Virus record (IMG/VR): IMGVR_UViG_3300010334_000236 | Location: 1-25,705 of that record | Source of the DNA: a virus | Strand: one strand, 5' to 3' | DNA length: 25,705 bases | Part shown: positions 6,158-25,562 of the stretch, one piece after another | Position numbering within the stretch: the stretch's first letter is position 1 | How the letters are laid out: every line of letters starts with the position of its first letter | Notes under the pieces: model-generated | Seen by the model: the letters and a program-made list of their open reading frames with translations, nothing else | What the model was told of the DNA's origin: nothing | Databases searched by the model: none | Made by a program: the position numbers and the translations under genes

Positions 6158-6987
6158 GATTTCTCTCCTCTCACAGGCGCAGTAAACATGTCGTATACTA
6201 CAGTTTCACCTTTAATGTTTTTCTTGACTTTGAAGTATCTTTTTCTGTCATCATCAAAGCCGCCTGTCATGTTCACCAGTGTGGATTCCACAGGTTCTGG
6301 TAAATCTTCATACTTGTTTTTGTACACAGGCTTGGGAGTATCATAAGCTTTGTTGAAGTCGTCCATGTCAGGATTCATTTGCGTTGCATGTGCTTCACGC
6401 TGAGCCGCAGTTAAAAAGTCATCCTGTGTGAAATAGTCACTTGTGGTTCTGGTGCTGGCCACTTTACTCAAATAATTAAGGAACTTTTTATTGTATGTGT
6501 CACCAAATACATCTTTAAGCAATGGTTGTTCTGCATCCAAATAACGGGGATTAGTGCTAAGCAAACTAGCATCAAGGGCATGCCCAGCATCTGCGGCTAG
6601 TTTGTCCAGGGTTTGTAATAACTGAATACGTGCAGAATCCACTTCAATAGCTTCGTTGTCTGATCTAACCACCACAAACTTTTCAGGCACATTAAGTATG
6701 CTTCGGATTTCCTGTTGCAAAATGTAAGCACTCACAGGCACACCAATAGCAAAGTCCACATAGATAATGTTTGAGTTCTCCATATCTGTAAATTCCAGAG
6801 TGTCCAAATCACCATCCACTTTTTGTATTGCGCCTACGCGAATTAATTTGTAGCGATCCAGCAGCCGCTCCAAGTTTTCCATGCGGTCGTCTGTGAGATC
6901 CACCACAGTCTTGAGTCTGTAGTGGAATTCACGTTGTGCTTCCATTAACCGTTGTTTAAAAGTTTTCATGTTTGCGTTCCAGTCCAT
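6154..6987 (-). CDS. Phage protein, 277 aa (271 from the second ATG), unknown function
   Basis: No function recognised. The protein is soluble-looking and charged. A helical N-terminus (MKTFKQRLMEAQREFHYRLKTV) is followed by a mixed core (NIIYVDFAIGVPVSAYILQQEI, FVVVRSDNEAIEVDSARIQLL) and a polar tail ending RYFKVKKNIKGETVVYDMF. Two starts are possible: ATG at 6987, or ATG at 6969 giving MKTFKQRL, an N-terminus common in T4-like virion genes. The inner start has a weak GGA upstream. The outer one lies only 6 nt from a TAAATA late core and would give an almost leaderless message. The gene lies between the TerS-like gene (5-nt gap) and the acidic 181-aa gene (ATGA overlap). Confidence 0.78.
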   Translation of the reverse strand: MDWNANMKTFKQRLMEAQREFHYRLKTVVDLTDDRMENLERLLDRYKLIRVGAIQKVDGDLDTLEFTDMENSNIIYVDFAIGVPVSAYILQQEIRSILNVPEKFVVVRSDNEAIEVDSARIQLLQTLDKLAADAGHALDASLLSTNPRYLDAEQPLLKDVFGDTYNKKFLNYLSKVASTRTTSDYFTQDDFLTAAQREAHATQMNPDMDDFNKAYDTPKPVYKNKYEDLPEPVESTLVNMTGGFDDDRKRYFKVKKNIKGETVVYDMFTAPVRGEKS

Positions 6988-9429: not shown

Positions 9430-10011
9430 TTATGCTATAGTAACGCCAGGTCTAAACTGTGGATTCAGTTCCATTAGTCCGTCAGCTAGTGTGGCATTAT
9501 CATATCTGATTGTCATGTTGATCATGACAGGATCACTGCTGGAATAATCTAGCTGCTGATAATCAACTGACTTGAGGAAACAACCTTCCAGAGTCCATTG
9601 CTCAAACACTGTTTCATTACCACCATCCATGATTTCCATGATGGTGGTAAATTTGTAATTGATGCCTGCTGCTGCACTTGTTTGTTCAAAGAAGTTCATC
9701 TGCTTTTGTAGTTGGTGGCCCACCAGCTTGCTTACGGAGTTGGTGATGTCGTCTCGAACTTCCAGTTGGGTTTCCTGCCATGTGGCTTTGCCCGAATAAT
9801 ACATCACACTGTTGTATGAGTGCATTGTGCCTTCTTCAAAGTTCACGTTAGGGCGGTTTGCAGTCACCACTTGTTGGGTGAGTTCCAGGCCACCTGCAAT
9901 GGGTCCGAAATTGATCACACGCACTCTAAAGCGATGTTTGATCTTGGGTTGAAATTGGCCAGTTCGGGTACCGTTGATGGGAACGCCAAACTTACTGAGG
10001 GTCTCTACCAT
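9430..10011 (-). CDS. 19: gp19 tail tube protein
   Basis: Major subunit of the inner tail tube through which DNA passes on infection. The 193-aa length and order of motifs fit gp19 of cyanophage-type T4-like phages: FGVPINGTRTGQFQPKIKHRFRVRVINFGP at the N-terminus, then VTANRPNVNFEE, SYNSVMYYSGKATWQE, VRDDITNSVSKLVGHQLQKQMNFFEQ (about 87-110), EGCFLKSVDYQQLDYSSSDPVMINMTIRYDNA near the C-terminus. GGAGA precedes the ATG. The leader carries a stem-loop and a late promoter core, in line with strong late expression. It is the first of a minus-strand run of tail and packaging genes. Confidence 0.9.
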   Translation of the reverse strand: MVETLSKFGVPINGTRTGQFQPKIKHRFRVRVINFGPIAGGLELTQQVVTANRPNVNFEEGTMHSYNSVMYYSGKATWQETQLEVRDDITNSVSKLVGHQLQKQMNFFEQTSAAAGINYKFTTIMEIMDGGNETVFEQWTLEGCFLKSVDYQQLDYSSSDPVMINMTIRYDNATLADGLMELNPQFRPGVTIA

Positions 10012-10019
10012 AAATTATC

Positions 10020-10045
10020 TCCACACGAGAAAGTTGTTGTGTGGA
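10020..10045 (-). promoter_or_regulatory. Stem-loop in the gp19 mRNA leader
   Basis: TCCACAC (10020-10026) and GTGTGGA (10039-10045) form a perfect 7-bp stem with a 12-nt loop. It lies directly behind the late promoter, near the 5' end of the message, and its 3' arm includes the GG of the GTGTGGAG ribosome site. It could stabilise the message or modulate initiation. Confidence 0.5.
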
Positions 10046-10051
10046 TATTTA
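10046..10051 (-). promoter_or_regulatory. Late promoter core TAAATA upstream of gp19
   Basis: The minus strand reads CATAAATATCC, the closest match here to the full T4 late -10 (TATAAATA). The leader to the gp19 ATG is about 30 nt and holds the stem-loop. Confidence 0.6.
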
Positions 10052-10086
10052 TGGTGAACAGATTAAATTTTCCTGGGGGTCACACG

Positions 10087-10437
10087 TTATGCGTGCCCCA
10101 CCTGCCCATATGCTAGTTCTGCTATTGTTTCTTGTTGATTGATCAATCCTTGATAAATCACTTGTTGACTGGATTCCAACACTTCTGCTTGATGGTCTTC
10201 ATGCACCAAACTGACCAAATTACCCAAACATTCACTAAAACATTCAATAGTTACACCAAGTGCATTATTCTTGCCCAGTTTTTTACTATAAAACTCCAGG
10301 ATCTCCACAGCATAGCGAGTTATTTCCCCACACACATACTGCCTGGCATGTTCTCTTTCTTCGTTTTCTGTTTGATCTAAATCTAATTCATCGGTATCTG
10401 AAGGTGATTCCCATTCAGGTTTTACGTCGTCTCGCAT
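10087..10437 (-). CDS. Acidic small phage protein, 116 aa, unknown function
   Basis: No function recognised. The N-terminal 30 residues are strongly acidic (DELDLDQTENEEREHA). The rest is helical (VCGEITRYAVEILEFYSKKLG, ECFSECLGNLVSLVHEDHQAEVLESSQQVIYQGLINQQETIAEL), so a helical bundle or adaptor is likely. The ATG at 10437 has AGGAG 7 nt upstream, one of the best ribosome sites in the window. It is the first gene of the minus-strand run ending at gene 32 and is separated from gp19 by 75 nt with its own late promoter. Confidence 0.72.
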   Translation of the reverse strand: MRDDVKPEWESPSDTDELDLDQTENEEREHARQYVCGEITRYAVEILEFYSKKLGKNNALGVTIECFSECLGNLVSLVHEDHQAEVLESSQQVIYQGLINQQETIAELAYGQVGHA

Positions 10438-10603
10438 GATATCTCTCCTACTTGATTGATGTTAAGTGTAATTTCAATTAAGTCAAACCATAGTAAAACG
10501 TGGTGAATTCGTTGTAAATATTTACTTTGGATGGGTTGTCTGTTATCATGCTGTTCTACATGCATGTATTTGACTGCAAGTGCTGTCCTCCTTAGTATAA
10601 TGC
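10438..10603. promoter_or_regulatory. Divergent intergenic region with palindromic late promoter
   Basis: A perfect 12-bp palindrome, GTAAATATTTAC at 10514-10525, contains the late core TAAATA on both strands. It is almost equidistant from the two divergent start codons: 83 nt to the plus-strand gene at 10604 and 81 nt to the minus-strand gene at 10437. A TATAAT at 10596-10601 also precedes the plus-strand ATG, with TTGACT upstream but 20 nt away, which is too far for a good sigma70 promoter. No other gene is seen in the region. Confidence 0.5.
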
Positions 10604-11362
10604 ATGATCCCCTTAAAAGTGTTTTATCATGTGTATATTCCAGAAGATTTACGAGCATGCGCATGGACATGGAATGTGGATCAACAACTTCAGTTGATTA
10701 AAAAAAGTAATTTGCATAAGTTAGCAGACGTGTACATGTGCGTGACCATGCCCCTCTGGTGGTCCAGCTTGTTTGGTTCAGATTTCCTGGATACGCAATC
10801 AAATAATACAACCACATTCAGCCATAAATTAAAGGAATATGTGCACTGTAGATATCCTTGGGTAAAGGAAGTGCAAGTTAGGGACCTGACTGAAAACATA
10901 TTTGAGGGATCCACTCTCAGTTATCTACACAAAATGAGCATGCAAGAGGACTTTCTGGGCTTATATATTCATGCAAAAGGCATTATACCCCAGTCCAGTC
11001 CTAGTGTGGCTAATTGGCGAGAAATCCTAAACCATTACTGTATTACAGAATGGTGCACAAATGTCAAGCTATTGCAACAGTATCAAGTGGTGGCGTTAAA
11101 TGATGGATTGAGTGTGAATGCACCAGTTGTTAGTGGAAACTTTTTTTGGGCTAGATCAGATTATGTGAGAACGTTACCAGATCCCATACAATCCACACTG
11201 TATACACATACACCCAATCTGTGGCCTAAGGGTAATAATTATAGATATGCCTTTGAGTTATGGATTCTGCACAATAACCCACGTGTTAATTATGTGTGTG
11301 ACACAAAAGTTAATCATTATAGCGAATACTGCTTTCTGGAAGACCTAATAAAGAAGGGATGA
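10604..11362 (+). CDS. Glycosyltransferase-like conserved protein, 252 aa
   Basis: The protein begins MIPLKVFYHVYIPEDLRACAWTWNVDQQLQLI and has ADVYMCVTMPLWW, then FLGLYIHAKGI, SVANWREILNHYCIT and, near residue 180, APVVSGNFFWARSDYVRTLPDP. It ends with RYAFELWILHNNPRV. The SGNFFWARSDY-LP and FELWI pattern is shared by small phage and bacterial proteins annotated as putative glycosyltransferases. I do not see a clear DxD metal motif, so the enzymatic call is tentative. No Shine-Dalgarno site is visible before the ATG. It runs against the surrounding minus-strand genes and ends in a hairpin that begins with its own stop codon. It could modify host or virion glycans, but this is inference. Confidence 0.55.
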   Translation: MIPLKVFYHVYIPEDLRACAWTWNVDQQLQLIKKSNLHKLADVYMCVTMPLWWSSLFGSDFLDTQSNNTTTFSHKLKEYVHCRYPWVKEVQVRDLTENIFEGSTLSYLHKMSMQEDFLGLYIHAKGIIPQSSPSVANWREILNHYCITEWCTNVKLLQQYQVVALNDGLSVNAPVVSGNFFWARSDYVRTLPDPIQSTLYTHTPNLWPKGNNYRYAFELWILHNNPRVNYVCDTKVNHYSEYCFLEDLIKKG

Positions 11363-11387
11363 GCGGAGATGTTGCCATCTCCGCTCA
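11360..11387. terminator. Hairpin at a convergent junction (12 bp, TTGC loop)
   Basis: TGAGCGGAGATG and CATCTCCGCTCA pair perfectly around TTGC, starting at the stop codon of the gene ending at 11362. On the minus strand it is followed by a T-rich stretch (TCCCTTCTTTATT); on the plus strand there is no U-tract. It closely resembles the hairpin at 13249-13278. Confidence 0.6.
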
Positions 11388-11413
11388 TCAACACCGTGCA
11401 TGGTATCACTAGC

Positions 11414-11491
11414 TTACACTGGTAGTGGATCACCAGTGTTCAGGATCCGTACAGGTATATAGATGAATTCCACAGCTTTGACTGGCTTAAT
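11414..11491 (-). pseudogene. Orphan copy of the sheath gene 3' end (25 codons plus stop)
   Basis: Read on the minus strand this stretch encodes KPVKAVEFIYIPVR and ILNTGDPLPV followed by TAA. That is the exact C-terminus of the gp18 sheath protein encoded by 13291-16899, with 24 of 25 residues identical (one I for V). By direct comparison the two copies differ at 13 of 78 nucleotides, almost all silent. Just upstream the frame has a TAG and the similarity stops. It has no start codon and is not a gene. It is the remains of a sheath gene end that diverged while still under selection and was then cut off from its gene by the endonuclease cassette at 11572-13251. Confidence 0.9.
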
Positions 11492-11543
11492 TGACTAAGG
11501 CTCATATAGGCAAGTAATTATAATTATGCTGAACTCTGCGACA

Positions 11544-11549
11544 TAAATA
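11544..11549 (+). promoter_or_regulatory. Late promoter core TAAATA upstream of the first endonuclease
   Basis: CATAAATACG lies 22 nt before the ATG at 11572, and a strong GGGAGG ribosome site lies between them. The endonuclease therefore has its own late expression signals. Confidence 0.55.
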
Positions 11550-11571
11550 CGCACGACCCGGGAGGCAGATC

Positions 11572-13251
11572 ATGAACGACCTAAAAGACATTCTTAAAAT
11601 TATTCCTAAAAATAAATGGCTAAACACAGTCAAAAAGCATGCAGTGTGGACGCAATATCTTAAAGGCTTGTACCCGTTTACTACCAAATTAAATGAACAA
11701 ATCTATTTGTTTGTTCATGAACTGGTGTGTCCCCCAAAATGTAAAGTTATTATGTGTGACAAACAAGTAAATTGGATCACCAACCATTATACTACCACCT
11801 GCTCTAGCTCTTGTGCACAACAATTGAGAAAACAATCAGGCGATTTGTCTAGAATTCAGGATAAAATGAAAGCCACCATGATGCACCGTTATGGTGTAAC
11901 AAATGCAAGTCAGAGTGAACATGTAATAAACAAACGCAATCAAACCATGATGGATAGATATGGTGCATTGGTGACTCCTCATGCAAGAGAAAAAACTAAG
12001 TCTAGAGCAACCACTCTAAACTCAAAGGGGAGACAAACCATCAAACAGCGTTATGGGGTAGAAAACGCAAGTCAAATTCCCGGCCACGCTCAGAGAGTTA
12101 AAACCACATTACAACAAAATCACGGTGTGAATCATCCCGCCCACATACCATATGTGCAAGAGGATAGATTAACCAAAAGAATAGGAAAATATCAAGATCT
12201 TGCCTGTGATGTGGTCACTATAACTGATTGGAGTCCAGCGTCGCAGCAATTGAAAGACTTTTATGAAAATCCCAATCCTAGAATAGAGTTCAAGTGTAAC
12301 ACATGTGATCATGTGGAAGAATTAGCTATGGAAACATTCAGATGGCGCACGCATGAATGTGGCACCCCATGCATCAAATGCAGCGGTCTTAACAAAGGTA
12401 GTCTACAAGAACGGCAATTGAGAGAGTATGTAGAGTCTTTAGGAGTCACAACTGTTGCTAATGATAGATCTGTGTTGCATCCTCTTGAGCTGGACATATG
12501 GTTACCTGAACACAATTTGGCTATTGAATATTGCGGACTATATTGGCATAGTGAGCTGCATGGCACAAGTAAATTTAGCCACTTGAACAAGATGATACAA
12601 TGTGCAAACAAAGGCATACGACTGATCACCATATTTGAAGATGAATGGCTACACAAGTCACAAGTTGTGAAAGATAGAATTAAGAACATGCTGGGGTTAA
12701 ATGATCACAGGGTGGGCGCTAGATTACTTACATGTAGCCCAGTGTTACCATCAGCAGCCAACAAGTTCTGTAGCCAACATCATGTACAAGGTGTGGGAAA
12801 AACTGTACATGCATATGGATTATATGAAAATAATGAGCTAGTAAGTGTGATCACATTCAGTGCCTTAACACCTGCCAAAGGCAGTACACCACTAGCACAT
12901 GTGTGGGAATTGAACAGGTTCTGTACCAAACCTGGTTTGACCATATCAGGTGGTGCTAGCAGAATGTTCACATCATTTGTGAGAGATCTGGATCCAGTTC
13001 AGGTTGTCAGCTACAGTGACAGAAGATGGAACACAGGCCAAGTTTATGCACAGTTGGGATTTGATCATGTGCATGATACGGGCCCCAACTATTGGTACAT
13101 TGACTTTAAATCCCTGACCCGAATTCACCGCTATAATTTACGCAAGACTGGTCAAGATGATGCATCACTAACTGAGTGGCAGAATAGACAAAATCAAGGA
13201 TGGAATCGAATTTGGGATTGTGGACACAGCAAGTGGATCTGGAACAAATGA
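11572..13251 (+). CDS. Homing endonuclease, Hef-like/Vsr-like EDxHD family, 559 aa
   Basis: Free-standing mobile DNA endonuclease. The N-terminal part has cysteines at 53, 57, 62, 77 and 81 that may bind zinc. It is followed by four spaced modules with a RYG(V)-type core (RYGV at 106, RYGA at 129, RYGV at 160, NHGV at 183), the DNA-binding repeats of this group. A zinc-ribbon-like set of cysteines (242, 245, 263, 267, 270) precedes a Vsr-type nuclease: E280 in SLQERQL, D308 in LELDIWLP, E319 and H326 in AIEYCGLYWHSE, DEWL at 357. The C-terminal domain (about 383-525: HHVQGVGKT, LYENNELVSVITFS, ELNRFC, SGGASRMFTSF, SYSDRRWNTGQVYAQLGF) is typical of Hef-like phage endonucleases. It is AT-rich compared with its neighbours and is inserted between two copies of the sheath 3' end, so the sheath gene is the likely homing target. 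Confidence 0.88.
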   Translation: MNDLKDILKIIPKNKWLNTVKKHAVWTQYLKGLYPFTTKLNEQIYLFVHELVCPPKCKVIMCDKQVNWITNHYTTTCSSSCAQQLRKQSGDLSRIQDKMKATMMHRYGVTNASQSEHVINKRNQTMMDRYGALVTPHAREKTKSRATTLNSKGRQTIKQRYGVENASQIPGHAQRVKTTLQQNHGVNHPAHIPYVQEDRLTKRIGKYQDLACDVVTITDWSPASQQLKDFYENPNPRIEFKCNTCDHVEELAMETFRWRTHECGTPCIKCSGLNKGSLQERQLREYVESLGVTTVANDRSVLHPLELDIWLPEHNLAIEYCGLYWHSELHGTSKFSHLNKMIQCANKGIRLITIFEDEWLHKSQVVKDRIKNMLGLNDHRVGARLLTCSPVLPSAANKFCSQHHVQGVGKTVHAYGLYENNELVSVITFSALTPAKGSTPLAHVWELNRFCTKPGLTISGGASRMFTSFVRDLDPVQVVSYSDRRWNTGQVYAQLGFDHVHDTGPNYWYIDFKSLTRIHRYNLRKTGQDDASLTEWQNRQNQGWNRIWDCGHSKWIWNK

Positions 13252-13278
13252 GCAGAGTGGCATCAGCCACTCTGCTCA
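13249..13278. terminator. Hairpin at a convergent junction (13 bp, ATCA loop)
   Basis: TGAGCAGAGTGGC and GCCACTCTGCTCA pair perfectly around ATCA. The stem starts with the stop codon of the endonuclease gene and lies 12 nt from the sheath stop codon. It is related in sequence (TGAGCRGAG...CTCYGCTCA) to the hairpin at 11360-11387, so it is part of the same duplicated unit. Confidence 0.6.
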
Positions 13279-13290
13279 AGTAATCAAAGT

Positions 13291-16200
13291 TTAAACTGGT
13301 AGCGGATCACCAGTATTCAGAATACGCACTGGTATGTATATGAATTCTACCGCTTTGACTGGCTTGACTGCGATATCGATCCACAGTTCATTTCTGTCAA
13401 TTCTGGGAGGAGTGTTATTAGTTTCATCACACAGTACAGCAAAGTCGTACACAGCTCTGAGTGCAACCAGGTCGCCCATAAAGCTTTCAAATGTACGCTG
13501 TACAGCATCACGTGTGTATTGATCATTTGGCTCAAACAAGAATGGTTTAGCCAAATTGTCCAGCTGATAGTTAAGATAATTGATCAAGCGGCTCACGTTC
13601 ACTCTGTCCATGGCACTTGCAACAGGACTCAAAGTCTTCTGGCCGTAAATTACCAATCCTCTACCAGGAATAAATCTGATTGGATTTATGGCGTTTTCAT
13701 ACAAGACGTCGCTCTGCCCTTGTGTTAATTGTACAGACACATATTCATTTTCACCGTTCAAGTACCCCACGCTGGTTAACACACTCACCAGGCCTCTGTT
13801 AAAGCCTGCGGGGGCAAACCATTGGTAACTGACTTGGTCATTGAATGCATATGTGCGCAGTACCGCCACACTGGGTGGTACGAACACTTCATTGCCATCC
13901 AGGTTGGTGGCCAGACCCCAAGGATAATACACCCCAGCATATCTGGAGCGGGTAATCAATCCATCTTCGCCATTGGAAGGTGCGTTATTGGAGTTAATAG
14001 CCCATGCCTGTATGCTGGTGCCATCAGGTGTCAGTCTGGCAGGTGGATCCACAATCACAAATGCCACATCCTTCTTGTCTGTGTTGAGTGTGACCAGTTC
14101 ATCAATCAGTTCAGGATATCCGGGTGCGCTCAACAAGTTGAAGAAATTGGCTTCAGCTCTGATTTCTTGGTTGCTCACAATAGCAGATGCCATGGCCTGT
14201 ACAACCATTCTGCGTTGTGCTTTTCGTCCCATGTATGGGGCCCCTGTGTTGGTCAAACCACTCACAGTGACCCAACGATCACGGTATTGACCTGTGGTCA
14301 AGTACTTTGGACGCCATTCCTTAACATTGTTGCTGGAATATCTCATATTGAATACTAATGTACCAAATGCATAAGTGAGTGCACTAGGTGCATCTTCGTC
14401 CACATAATCACTCACCAGCATATCTGAAACCAGTTCACTTCCGTCCAGCAGACCAGTGTTGTTGGGTCTAACGTCAGCAAACACAATGCCCTGACTGCTG
14501 CTCTGATCGGTATTGTCAATCAATGTCCACAACATATTCAAACTGTCGTAACGGTAGATCTTGGGATAGTTTTCCAAGTCACTTGTGTCAATCCACAAGT
14601 CCATGTCAGCCAATGGAGTGAATCCATCTGTTTGGGTGGAGGGCTCTGTTGCACTCAACAGTACACCACCAGGGTTTGTGGCAGGGTACATGTTGCGATA
14701 ACCCATCCACATTGTGCCATCACTAACCATGATGTCCACTCTAAGATTTTGGTTGAACCAAATAGTTCCAGAGTCTGGTGATGCTATGGGTATAGCTGTA
14801 CCCTGGGCATACGGAATATCTTGGCCGTTCAAGGTCAGGCTGGATGCCGCTGTCCATGAGGTTCCATTCCATATCTTGACCAAGCATGTGGCAGTGGAAG
14901 GCGCAGTCATGTTGCTGTCGTATTGCACATACACACTGCCAATCTGTCGCTGGCTGCTGTAGCCCATGTTTGCACTTGTGTCATCCATGTACAAAGGAGC
15001 AGGCTTAGTTTGCCAAGTTCCAGTGCCGGAGTTATAACGCTTCACGTTATAAACTGCACCTCTGTTCCCTGCAACAGTGTTGATCCATATGTTACCACTT
15101 GCCACTTGCTCAAGTGTACGAGGCTGTGGTACAGTTTGTGAGTAGCCTTGGTAAATCAAGCTGTTGCCCAGTGTTGCTCCGCATGGAATGCCACTACGTT
15201 CTGTGAAGGGGATCACTGGCATTGAATTTACACCATTGCGGATGGTGAAGAATGTACCCAGCTTGTTAATAATTTTGAAGTTTTCCACAGCGCCCACAGT
15301 TATCACACTTGCGGTAATATATGGGCTTAATATGCTGCTGGCGTTAATTTGATTACTGAATTCAGTGGCAGTAACACCCCCTGGTGTGGTCACAGTGATG
15401 GTGTCTGAATAGCCGCCCACCGTGATTGTGATGGCTGTGTTTTGGGAATAAATTGTGGCAGTCACATCTGATGTGCCAGTTACTTCTCCGTAGAATGTTT
15501 GTGATTGTGCAATACCAAGTGCATCAAACAGCCCATATCTTGTATCCACTAACGCAATGTCTGTACCTGCATAGTTAATAATTCTCAGATAGCTGTCTGG
15601 ACCTTGGCTATAAATGGTGGCCACTGCCTTCATATTATTTGTTGCAAAAAACTCATTTAGTTGCATGGTCAATTCAAGTAATGTGGTAGAATTATTCACA
15701 AATGTAGCACTATTACTACCAATTCGGATTTGACTTTGGGCGCCAGATGTAAACACTGGACTACGATTAGTACCCGTTACTACAGTGGGAGTAGCTTCAC
15801 ACCAGCCTGCACCAGGCACTTGTGTATCTTTGCTGCCAATCACAAACCATCTTACTTGTGTGGTGTTGTTGGTGGTGACCACAATCTTTTCATACATCTG
15901 TACTTGTGTGACCAGATTGTTACTTCCATCCATGCTCTTGTACGCATTTACTGCCACACTGCCCACTGTACCCAATGTGCTAACAGGCAACACTGTCATA
16001 ATAGGAGTAGCTGTGAGTCCTAATGCTGTAAGCAACCCAGATGTACTGTCTGTTAGTATTATACCATTCTCAATATCCACATCTGCACTAACCAGTCGCA
16101 AGTTGTACACAGTGGCAGCGGTTGTGGCACTGGGCACACCAGTTTCATAACTAACCACTCTTTCTGCGACTTGTGCTCTTAGCACCTTTACAGATGGATT

Positions 16201-16899
16201 TGTGCTAGTGAGCAACACAGTGTTGATCTTCTGAACAGTGTCCATCAGGCTGTCTCCTGACAGTATGACCACTTCCAAGTTCAAGGTGTTTTTATTGATT
16301 ATGAGTGATCCCGTCACCCCCAAATTTGCATTAGGATCCAGTATGGGAGTTGCAGTCATACCTTGCACCATCAATTCCAGCTGGCTAGCTGAATCAATTA
16401 CTATGGGCTTGATGGCTCCCCATGCCAAGCTGCTGTTGATGTTACCATTTGATCTGAACATGCCCCAGCTGCTGTTGCCAGTGTCCAACCAATATGCGCC
16501 ATTTTTGGGTGTACCAGAAGGTGGTATGGCGGAACTTTCCAGTGCGGCCAAATCCACATCTGCTCTCATCACAAAAGCTCTGTTGGCCAATCCCAGGTAC
16601 TGGAAGGCTGCATACAGACCCCATTCGTTAAGCTCACTGCCATTCTGGGGAGTTCCAGCCTGGGTGGTGAATATGGGATTACCAAAAGTTTGTATGAGTT
16701 CTCTTTGAGAAGTGATACCATACAGCTTGTTGGCGTTCATTTTCACAGTGCCTGGTGCAATAGATGTAGTGTTACCAGGTTGCCCTTTATCTTGAGCAGT
16801 AGCTAGCATAATGAAAGGCACGGTGCCCTGTTGGCCCCCTGCATAAAAACTTTCATCTATAATTTGGACTTGAACCCCAGGGCTCACAAGATTTGCCAT
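13291..16899 (-). CDS. 18: gp18 tail sheath protein, giant 1202-aa form
   Basis: Subunit of the contractile sheath around the tail tube. The N-terminus (MANLVSPGVQVQIIDESFYAG, then PFIMLATAQDKGQPG, LYGITSQRELIQTFGNP, NEWGLYAAFQYLGLANRAFVMRADVDL) is characteristic of T4-like sheaths. So is the C-terminal core (INYLNYQLDNLAKPFLFEPND at about 1100, ELWIDIAVKPVKAVEFIYIPVRI). T4 gp18 has 659 residues, so this protein carries about 540 extra in the middle. There I see three comparable beta-rich modules at roughly 196-296, 388-465 and 478-556, probably surface domains. GAGGTC precedes the ATG, with a late core upstream. The last codons appear to come from a related phage (see the orphan copy at 11414-11491). 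Confidence 0.95.
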   Translation of the reverse strand: MANLVSPGVQVQIIDESFYAGGQQGTVPFIMLATAQDKGQPGNTTSIAPGTVKMNANKLYGITSQRELIQTFGNPIFTTQAGTPQNGSELNEWGLYAAFQYLGLANRAFVMRADVDLAALESSAIPPSGTPKNGAYWLDTGNSSWGMFRSNGNINSSLAWGAIKPIVIDSASQLELMVQGMTATPILDPNANLGVTGSLIINKNTLNLEVVILSGDSLMDTVQKINTVLLTSTNPSVKVLRAQVAERVVSYETGVPSATTAATVYNLRLVSADVDIENGIILTDSTSGLLTALGLTATPIMTVLPVSTLGTVGSVAVNAYKSMDGSNNLVTQVQMYEKIVVTTNNTTQVRWFVIGSKDTQVPGAGWCEATPTVVTGTNRSPVFTSGAQSQIRIGSNSATFVNNSTTLLELTMQLNEFFATNNMKAVATIYSQGPDSYLRIINYAGTDIALVDTRYGLFDALGIAQSQTFYGEVTGTSDVTATIYSQNTAITITVGGYSDTITVTTPGGVTATEFSNQINASSILSPYITASVITVGAVENFKIINKLGTFFTIRNGVNSMPVIPFTERSGIPCGATLGNSLIYQGYSQTVPQPRTLEQVASGNIWINTVAGNRGAVYNVKRYNSGTGTWQTKPAPLYMDDTSANMGYSSQRQIGSVYVQYDSNMTAPSTATCLVKIWNGTSWTAASSLTLNGQDIPYAQGTAIPIASPDSGTIWFNQNLRVDIMVSDGTMWMGYRNMYPATNPGGVLLSATEPSTQTDGFTPLADMDLWIDTSDLENYPKIYRYDSLNMLWTLIDNTDQSSSQGIVFADVRPNNTGLLDGSELVSDMLVSDYVDEDAPSALTYAFGTLVFNMRYSSNNVKEWRPKYLTTGQYRDRWVTVSGLTNTGAPYMGRKAQRRMVVQAMASAIVSNQEIRAEANFFNLLSAPGYPELIDELVTLNTDKKDVAFVIVDPPARLTPDGTSIQAWAINSNNAPSNGEDGLITRSRYAGVYYPWGLATNLDGNEVFVPPSVAVLRTYAFNDQVSYQWFAPAGFNRGLVSVLTSVGYLNGENEYVSVQLTQGQSDVLYENAINPIRFIPGRGLVIYGQKTLSPVASAMDRVNVSRLINYLNYQLDNLAKPFLFEPNDQYTRDAVQRTFESFMGDLVALRAVYDFAVLCDETNNTPPRIDRNELWIDIAVKPVKAVEFIYIPVRILNTGDPLPV

Positions 16900-24680: not shown

Positions 24681-24707
24681 TCACAAACTTGAATGGGGGT
24701 ATGTGAT

Positions 24708-25562
24708 ATGATTGAATGTCAAATTTGTGGACGTAAATTGGGTAACCTGACTGGTAAGCATTTGACCAGTCATAACATGAGTGCAGCAGAATACAAACTG
24801 CAATATCCTGGCCATCCAGTCACCATGCCCAGAACGCAAAGTGAAGAGACCAAGGAGAAGCGTGCTGCTAGCATGCGTGGTCGTTCACATAGTGAAGAGA
24901 CCAAAGCCAAGATTGGTGCAGGCAACAAAGGAAAAACTCGCAGCCAACAGGATATTGATAAGTGGCGAGAAAGTTATTCAGAGTTCTTGATGGAGAATGG
25001 CGGCTCTCCCCAGAAAGGATACAAGCGTTCTCAAGAGTTTAAGGATCGCATGAGTGAAATTGCATCAAATAGGGATCCTGAACTAGTTCAACAGAAACTG
25101 GAACAAATGTGGGAAGCTAGACGAGGAAGTAAGGCCACAGAGGCGCAGCGTGAGAACTACAGAGATGGTAGACTCAAGTTTATGGTAGATAATCCTCACA
25201 AGCTACCTAAACAAATGTTCAATACAGTGCCAGAACAAGAGTTTGCATTAATTCTGGACAAATTGAATATATCTTACGAGCGCAGCTTCCATTTGGGGAA
25301 CAGAGTGTTTGATTTCAAAGTGGGACACAATATACTTATAGAGATTGATGGTCCGTACCATAGGACTCTGGGATTTTACTTGCCACCAGGATCATCTGAT
25401 GATGAAAAGGTTGCTAAATTAATGGGCTTCATAGAGAGAGATAGACTCAAGGATAACCTAGCACGGCAAAAGGGATATTTTATATACCGGATACCAGTAG
25501 GTCAACATGTTCCTGATAACTGGTTGAACATACTAAATGACCAAGGCTTCTCAGGCTGGTAA
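24708..25562 (+). CDS. Homing endonuclease with zinc finger, NUMOD3 modules and Vsr-like EDxHD nuclease, 284 aa
   Basis: Mobile free-standing endonuclease. Residues 1-40 form a MucR-like zinc finger (CQICGRK...H18...H22, with SAAEYKLQYPGHPV). Residues about 44-76 carry NUMOD3-type DNA-binding repeats (SEETKEKRAASMRGRSHSEETKAKIGAGNKGK). A charged linker follows, and the C-terminal nuclease has E176 in VPEQEF, D202 in VFDFKVG, E212/D214 and H218 in IEIDGPYHR, and RDRLKDNLARQKGY, which is the EDxHD/Vsr arrangement. An ATG at 24693 is in frame (MGVCD...), but GGGGG at 24696-24700 is well placed for the ATG at 24708. It has its own late promoter and ends just before a hairpin. Its homing target is unknown. 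Confidence 0.88.
   Translation: MIECQICGRKLGNLTGKHLTSHNMSAAEYKLQYPGHPVTMPRTQSEETKEKRAASMRGRSHSEETKAKIGAGNKGKTRSQQDIDKWRESYSEFLMENGGSPQKGYKRSQEFKDRMSEIASNRDPELVQQKLEQMWEARRGSKATEAQRENYRDGRLKFMVDNPHKLPKQMFNTVPEQEFALILDKLNISYERSFHLGNRVFDFKVGHNILIEIDGPYHRTLGFYLPPGSSDDEKVAKLMGFIERDRLKDNLARQKGYFIYRIPVGQHVPDNWLNILNDQGFSGW

Follow-up and report, generated by a model that had tools for sequence, protein, structure and literature searches.

The tail sheath gene of virus record IMGVR_UViG_3300010334_000236 appears to end in coding sequence supplied by a mobile element. In the analyzed stretch of 25,705 nucleotides (nt) (25.7 kilobases (kb); hereafter the window), whose tail sheath is nearest, among named phages, to those of the jumbo phages Atu_ph07, Phosso, and PA5oct, positions 11489-13365 are best explained as a mobile homing-endonuclease element (probability roughly 0.85) that entered the sheath gene some 25 codons short of the stop codon and brought an in-frame replacement tail and a two-way hairpin with it. 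The DNA itself shows where the cassette went in and where it ends, the tail that it supplies, the resident tail that it orphaned, and a recent spread of the cassette between related phages, and from these we infer cleavage, rescue of the sheath gene, and self-protection. Several further phage lineages have this architecture at their sheath gene, in one case together with a matching empty site. The features of the window are as follows (L-numbers, here and below, denote viral contig loci compared with the window).

13291-16899, minus strand: tail sheath gene, 1202 amino acids (aa), the last 25 codons being the imported tail (Pfam Phage_sheath_1C, 8.5e-16; PHROG 10581 tail sheath, 1e-247)
13366-13433, minus strand: putative co-converted sheath tract just upstream of the insertion point (0/68 differences from L001, versus 65/812 further upstream)
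13291-13365, minus strand: cassette-borne replacement sheath tail, 24 codons plus stop (1/75 differences from L001)
13249-13278, no strand: hairpin between the convergent endonuclease and sheath genes, its stem starting with the endonuclease stop codon
11572-13251, plus strand: homing endonuclease gene encoding 559 aa; it and the sheath gene are convergent (PHROG 3339 homing endonuclease, 5e-111; PADLOC HEase, 9.6e-8)
12406-12684, plus strand: EDxHD-like nuclease domain, residues 279-371 (three residues invariant in 48 relatives; family profile matching structure 3r3p)
12718-13248, plus strand: GNAT domain at the C-terminus, residues 383-559, nearest to phage Mu Mom (AlphaFold, Foldseek, VIA, and a profile comparison with Mu Mom)
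11542-11549, plus strand: CATAAATA, a probable late-promoter-like motif before the endonuclease start codon, also present upstream of a tail tube gene at 10053 (minus strand)
11489-13365, no strand: whole inserted cassette, comprising tail, hairpin, endonuclease, and leader (1877 nt; ends within about 5 nt either way; about 10 differences from L001; the orphan diverges immediately beyond)
11414-11488, minus strand: orphan, i.e., the resident sheath tail, detached from its gene and lacking a start codon (tail alignment)
11358-11389, no strand: resident hairpin between the orphan tail and o252 (folding)
10604-11362, plus strand: o252, the resident downstream neighbor, 252 aa, without a family match (located directly after the sheath gene in L005)

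An earlier reading of this DNA, made from its letters without database searches (the sequence-only reading), had described the endonuclease gene as lying between two sheath-gene endings, and the alignment bears this out (66/78 nt identical, E 2e-22). Its count of 13 differing bases in 78 becomes 12/78 in our alignment, a trivial discrepancy. It had also regarded the differences as nearly all silent and the two ends as having evolved separately under selection and not by decay. From the shared Lys codon to the stop codon, 11/75 nt differ and all 11 changes are synonymous, as this view predicts. About 26% of random single changes in the 75-nt tail would be silent, so that a decaying dead copy would show 11 silent changes out of 11 with a chance of about 4e-7; therefore, both tail copies diverged while encoding protein. 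The two hairpins that it had noted beside the sheath ends were recovered as well: each reaches about -26 to -27 kcal/mol on either strand, and no shuffled sequence was equally stable. The one at 13249-13278 is probably a two-way transcription terminator. The endonuclease open reading frame (ORF) is intact, its stop codon providing the first bases of the hairpin stem, and the sheath ORF continues in frame into the cassette tail and ends at the stop codon there. In the orphan a start codon is lacking, and an in-frame stop lies just upstream. The number and order of tail copies are not a quirk of a single assembly, since L001, found in a different sample, is laid out in the same way.

Scanning viral contigs with the sheath protein yielded 23 relatives. 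In the comparison of the window with L001, the two cassettes are 99.5% identical in DNA, whereas the host sheath genes are 8-11% diverged and the orphans differ. By segment, differences amount to 65/812 in the sheath body, 0/68 in the last 68 nt before the junction, 1/117 in tail plus hairpin, 9/1680 in the endonuclease, 1/83 in the leader, and 8/75 in the orphan, where divergence begins no more than 5 nt from the cassette end. Judged by these counts, the cassette has been shared recently, and the two gene halves on either side of it are older. The copies within a genome are not each other's closest relatives, as the sequence-only reading had maintained: informative sites group the two tails together and the two orphans together, 7:0:0. 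The junctions on the far side also belong to the residents. In the window, the order orphan-hairpin-o252 is that of the uninterrupted L005; in L001, the orphan and hairpin are followed by o116 with no o252 between, as in the uninterrupted L002 and L015. The window orphan groups with the L001 orphan and with the resident neighbor o252. The simplest reading of these data is that one cassette entered two different resident sheath genes. The earlier proposal that a foreign tail fused in frame and left the resident tail as an orphan is thus largely supported for the window by the 7:0:0 grouping and the L005 junction, but the word foreign does not extend to L009, L127, and L047, in which the two tails are identical or nearly so.

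A natural and clean occupied/empty pair was found in another lineage. The sheath gene is uninterrupted in L128 and L129, which come from two samples and are 99.99% identical, whereas L127, which is 98.9% identical to them over 7 kb, carries the tail, hairpin, and endonuclease. At the sheath 3' end, L127 shows no differences from L128/L129 in 240 nt, then 12 differences in the 103 nt immediately before the junction, and beyond this tract none except a 10-base-pair (bp) repeat. The 12/103 tract is, on this pattern, a copied and changed tract at the likely target. Together with the low-difference tract (0/68) in the window and L001, it is a sign of co-conversion. The 10-bp repeat is present in both L127 tails, which are identical, and absent from L128; either gene conversion or transfer from a donor whose own tails were identical would have made the two alike. 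At 7131-8762 of L127 (which is the contig of L098), the reading frame of the endonuclease continues into the orphan tail, so that the last 11 endonuclease residues are encoded by it (..AKWIMNTGAIAAGL-stop). L010, which corresponds over 7.7 kb to L009 minus its first endonuclease, was rejected as a proof of an empty site for L009: the L009 tails, identical over 101 bp, permit deletion through the repeat or assembly collapse, and L010 is better read in one of these ways than as a susceptible target.

With the endonuclease family as query, 80 loci were recovered; in most of them the endonuclease gene lies directly at the end of the sheath gene, either convergent with it or downstream on the same strand, and such a placement is seen in many jumbo-type phages. 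Over all loci, we compared 49 non-redundant sheath ends with an endonuclease within 1 kb and 101 without. A second tail copy was detected at 7/49 of the former and 0/101 of the latter (Fisher 2.9e-4); that is, no relative lacking the endonuclease carries the two copies, which is what the sequence-only reading had anticipated. One of the seven, L053, is counted by score, and the clean orphans number 6/7. When the test was restricted to the far edge of the endonuclease, a tail copy was seen in 9/45 loci, two of them ambiguous (L053 and L062). In both of these a sheath-like fragment of the YVDIAIEPVKTI type is present between the endonuclease start and the promoter-like motif (L053, reverse strand of the locus, 6610-6645; L062, 2598-2633; sheath-sense coordinates), and L066 perhaps has the same type of fragment at 6505-6537 in the same coordinates.

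Orphan tails beyond the far side of the endonuclease occur in the window, L001, the L009 group, L047, L098/L127, L045, and L049. Insertion points fall within the last 10-30 sheath codons, at a position that differs by lineage: at KP[VT]KA in the window, L001, and L009, at or within IPIR in L045, L047, and L049, and before IMNTG in L098/L127. In L047, three near-identical tails surround two endonucleases. L009 has two endonucleases in series, with a decayed third tail (VLNTGDSLP-stop) and a hairpin beyond the second one (10030-10140), which suggests two or more replacements of the sheath end in this lineage. Eight PA5oct-like isolates encode one such endonuclease protein between the sheath and tube genes; no orphan tail was found in these isolates or in L130, L131, and L143, though the endonuclease adjoins the sheath gene. 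In Campylobacter phage F367 (L301, 2550-6313), two endonucleases of the family in series face the neck gene, the end of which overlaps the first by 4 nt; no copy of the neck-gene tail was found at this locus.

The endonuclease is classified, on profile evidence, as a homing-family nuclease with an EDxHD-like domain (for this nuclease family, see PMC3943268). A profile built from 49 relatives matches the EDxHD homing nuclease I-Bth0305I (structure 3r3p, E 1e-8), and residues D308, E319, and H326 are invariant in the alignment of 48 relatives. The AlphaFold model (predicted local distance difference test (pLDDT) score 91.6) shows that residues 383-559 form a GNAT domain, for which the top Foldseek match is 8bv8, phage Mu Mom (E 8.8e-7). 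VIA gave a Z of 13.1 for Mom, tied with other GNAT proteins, and the profile of the GNAT part aligns to Mu Mom with H404, R449, D483, and Y492 paired with like residues. The I-Bth0305I fold was absent among the fold-search matches listed, which were occupied by matches to the GNAT domain. This Mom-like domain ends the endonuclease in the window (12718-13248) and in all 48 relatives, a candidate DNA-modifying activity in the same chain as the nuclease.

In the mechanism that we propose, a co-infecting phage whose sheath gene is uninterrupted would have that gene cut by the endonuclease close to the insertion point. Repair of the break from the carrier would then copy in the endonuclease, the spare tail, and a short stretch upstream. 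The recipient's own tail would become the orphan, doubling as the downstream homology arm, and sheath function would be rescued by the supplied tail: the essential sheath protein would stay complete because its tail is replaced. Carriers would be protected from their own enzyme by the changed upstream tract, by the Mom-like modifying domain, or by both. The domain could explain how carriers with an unchanged target, such as L009, avoid cutting themselves. A stronger version, which we hold only tentatively and regard as rather unlikely, is a homing element with built-in modification, in which the Mom-like domain would mark carrier DNA such that the nuclease spares even a recreated exact target, while unmarked co-infecting genomes would be cut and converted. 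If true, built-in modification would join essential-gene rescue with restriction-modification-like immunity and represent a natural counterpart of designed rescue gene drives.

Several points weigh against the mobile-element interpretation. Cleavage of the sheath 3' end by the endonuclease is a deduction from sequence. Approximately 36/45 testable sheath-adjacent members have no detectable orphan, and therefore many members resemble plain intergenic insertions. The loci come almost entirely from metagenomic contigs. Given the identical 101-bp tails of L009, every short word of the element-free L010 is kept in L009; site disruption alone therefore cannot protect this carrier. The viral contig scans returned no uninterrupted close relative of the window sheath body. 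Finally, the genes further downstream are 95-100% identical between the window and L001.

This last observation would fit a shared ancestral region in which one block was replaced. The cassette would have been inserted once in the common ancestor of the window and L001, and the orphan-hairpin-o252 segment would later have been swapped in one lineage by recombination with an uninterrupted phage. Such a history keeps the inserted cassette and the replacement tail and differs only in dispensing with separate entries into two phages. However, the crossover would have to fall no more than about 5 nt from the cassette end (in reverse coordinates, the junction is at 14218 and the first orphan difference at 14223), and the orphan divergence of 8/75 fits that of the sheath body (8%), not that of the cassette (0.5%). 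We consider it possible, with the odds clearly against it.

It is also conceivable, and somewhat less probable again, that the protein is not a homing enzyme but a restriction-modification-like weapon, pairing a nuclease of the restriction endonuclease (REase) fold with a Mom-like modifier against the DNA of competing phages or the host, its place beside the sheath gene being incidental. The C-terminal GNAT domain, with Mom as its best structural match, suits this role. Iyer et al. 2021 (PMC7824862) describe Mom domains of jumbo phages fused to REase-fold nucleases, five of them in PA5oct, and read them as restriction-modification; the PA5oct-like phages have one such fusion beside the sheath gene. 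Nevertheless, several lineages have site-specific insertions with replacement tails at this one gene end, and a clean empty site exists; these are hallmarks of homing and unexpected for a fixed restriction system, and the two functions may coexist. The insertion evidence indicates that at least the nuclease-Mom fusions described here are mobile.

Had the sheath 3' end been duplicated locally in tandem, the endonuclease could have landed between the two copies, after which the outer one decayed; such a history would account for two copies flanking the endonuclease and for their identity or near-identity in the DNA of L009, L047, and L127. The all-silent differences in the window, the 7:0:0 grouping across genomes instead of within them, the lack of a second copy in all 101 relatives without the endonuclease, and the inclusion of an upstream changed tract in the L127 insertion make it very improbable. 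A spliced element, in which the sheath body would be joined to the orphan tail in RNA with the inner tail unused, resembles the body-insert-tail geometry of an interrupted gene but is hardly credible, since no Rfam match was obtained (none at E up to 1 in window positions 10000-15000, and none at the gathering score in L127, L001, and L009), the endonuclease is antisense to the sheath gene in the window, and the inner tail already completes the protein while the orphan is preceded by a stop.

The mobile element has a close parallel outside phages. Mobile ORFs of fungal mitochondria replace the C-terminus of genes (Allomyces macrogynus atp6; Glomus atp6, atp9, cox2, and nad3; Beaudet et al. 2013, PMC3630166). 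They share with the phage element an endonuclease ORF in an essential gene, an in-frame foreign 3' end, a native 3' end left downstream (unexpressed in Glomus atp6 and cox2), and two ends much less alike in DNA than in protein. The fungal enzymes are LAGLIDADG and GIY-YIG endonucleases, whereas the phage element encodes an EDxHD-like nuclease with a Mom-like domain, lies at a tail sheath gene, often on the opposite strand, and supplies a hairpin. Phage endonucleases, according to a review of T4 mobile elements (PMC2988022), either lie between genes or interrupt one (nrdA by mobE, the topoisomerase gene by mobA). The Seg, Mob, and Hef enzymes resemble the present element in having no intron, lying beside a conserved essential gene, and spreading by copying flanking DNA, but none of the T4 free-standing endonucleases is described there with a spare gene end, and the word 'duplicate' is absent from that review. 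With I-Bth0305I the element shares a related nuclease domain; the 3r3p entry bears the name 'mobile intron protein' and is matched over the nuclease only, whereas the phage protein has no intron, an N-terminal repeat region, and the C-terminal GNAT/Mom-like domain. The jumbo-phage Mom-REase fusions have the same domain pair, and PA5oct has five places matching the window endonuclease; they are presented as restriction-modification, and the passages covered (PMC7824862) do not mention mobility, insertion at the sheath gene, or replacement tails.

In the literature covered (open-licence papers), no phage precedent for an endonuclease carrying a spare gene end was found. Carrying a spare 3' end, which the sequence-only reading had proposed as a strategy, is not new to biology: the replacement-tail principle is known from fungal mitochondria, and it is the phage form of it that appears to be new.

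In compact viral genomes, the usual view confines selfish genes to intergenic gaps or self-splicing elements. The element described here would be one that, without splicing, repeatedly enters the coding region of an essential structural gene and is harmless because it supplies a new gene end; part of the phage sheath gene would thus evolve by parasite-driven replacement. The principle seen in fungal mitochondria would be extended to phages, where the occupied/empty pair makes it testable, and at least some nuclease-Mom fusions of jumbo phages would have to be read as mobile homing elements.

Further features were noted in the window and its relatives. The position of o252 changes among relatives (window 10604-11362; L009 10507-11328; L005): it lies beside the sheath gene, lies between o116 and the tube gene, or is absent. 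Given this changing place, o252 may itself be mobile. A second putative homing endonuclease, with matches to NUMOD3 and to a Ros/MucR-type zinc finger, is located at 24693-25562 of the window. The middle of the sheath protein varies strongly in length, giving totals of 1202, 1289, and 1345 aa (window 13291-16899 compared with L001 and L009), and its identity is mosaic.

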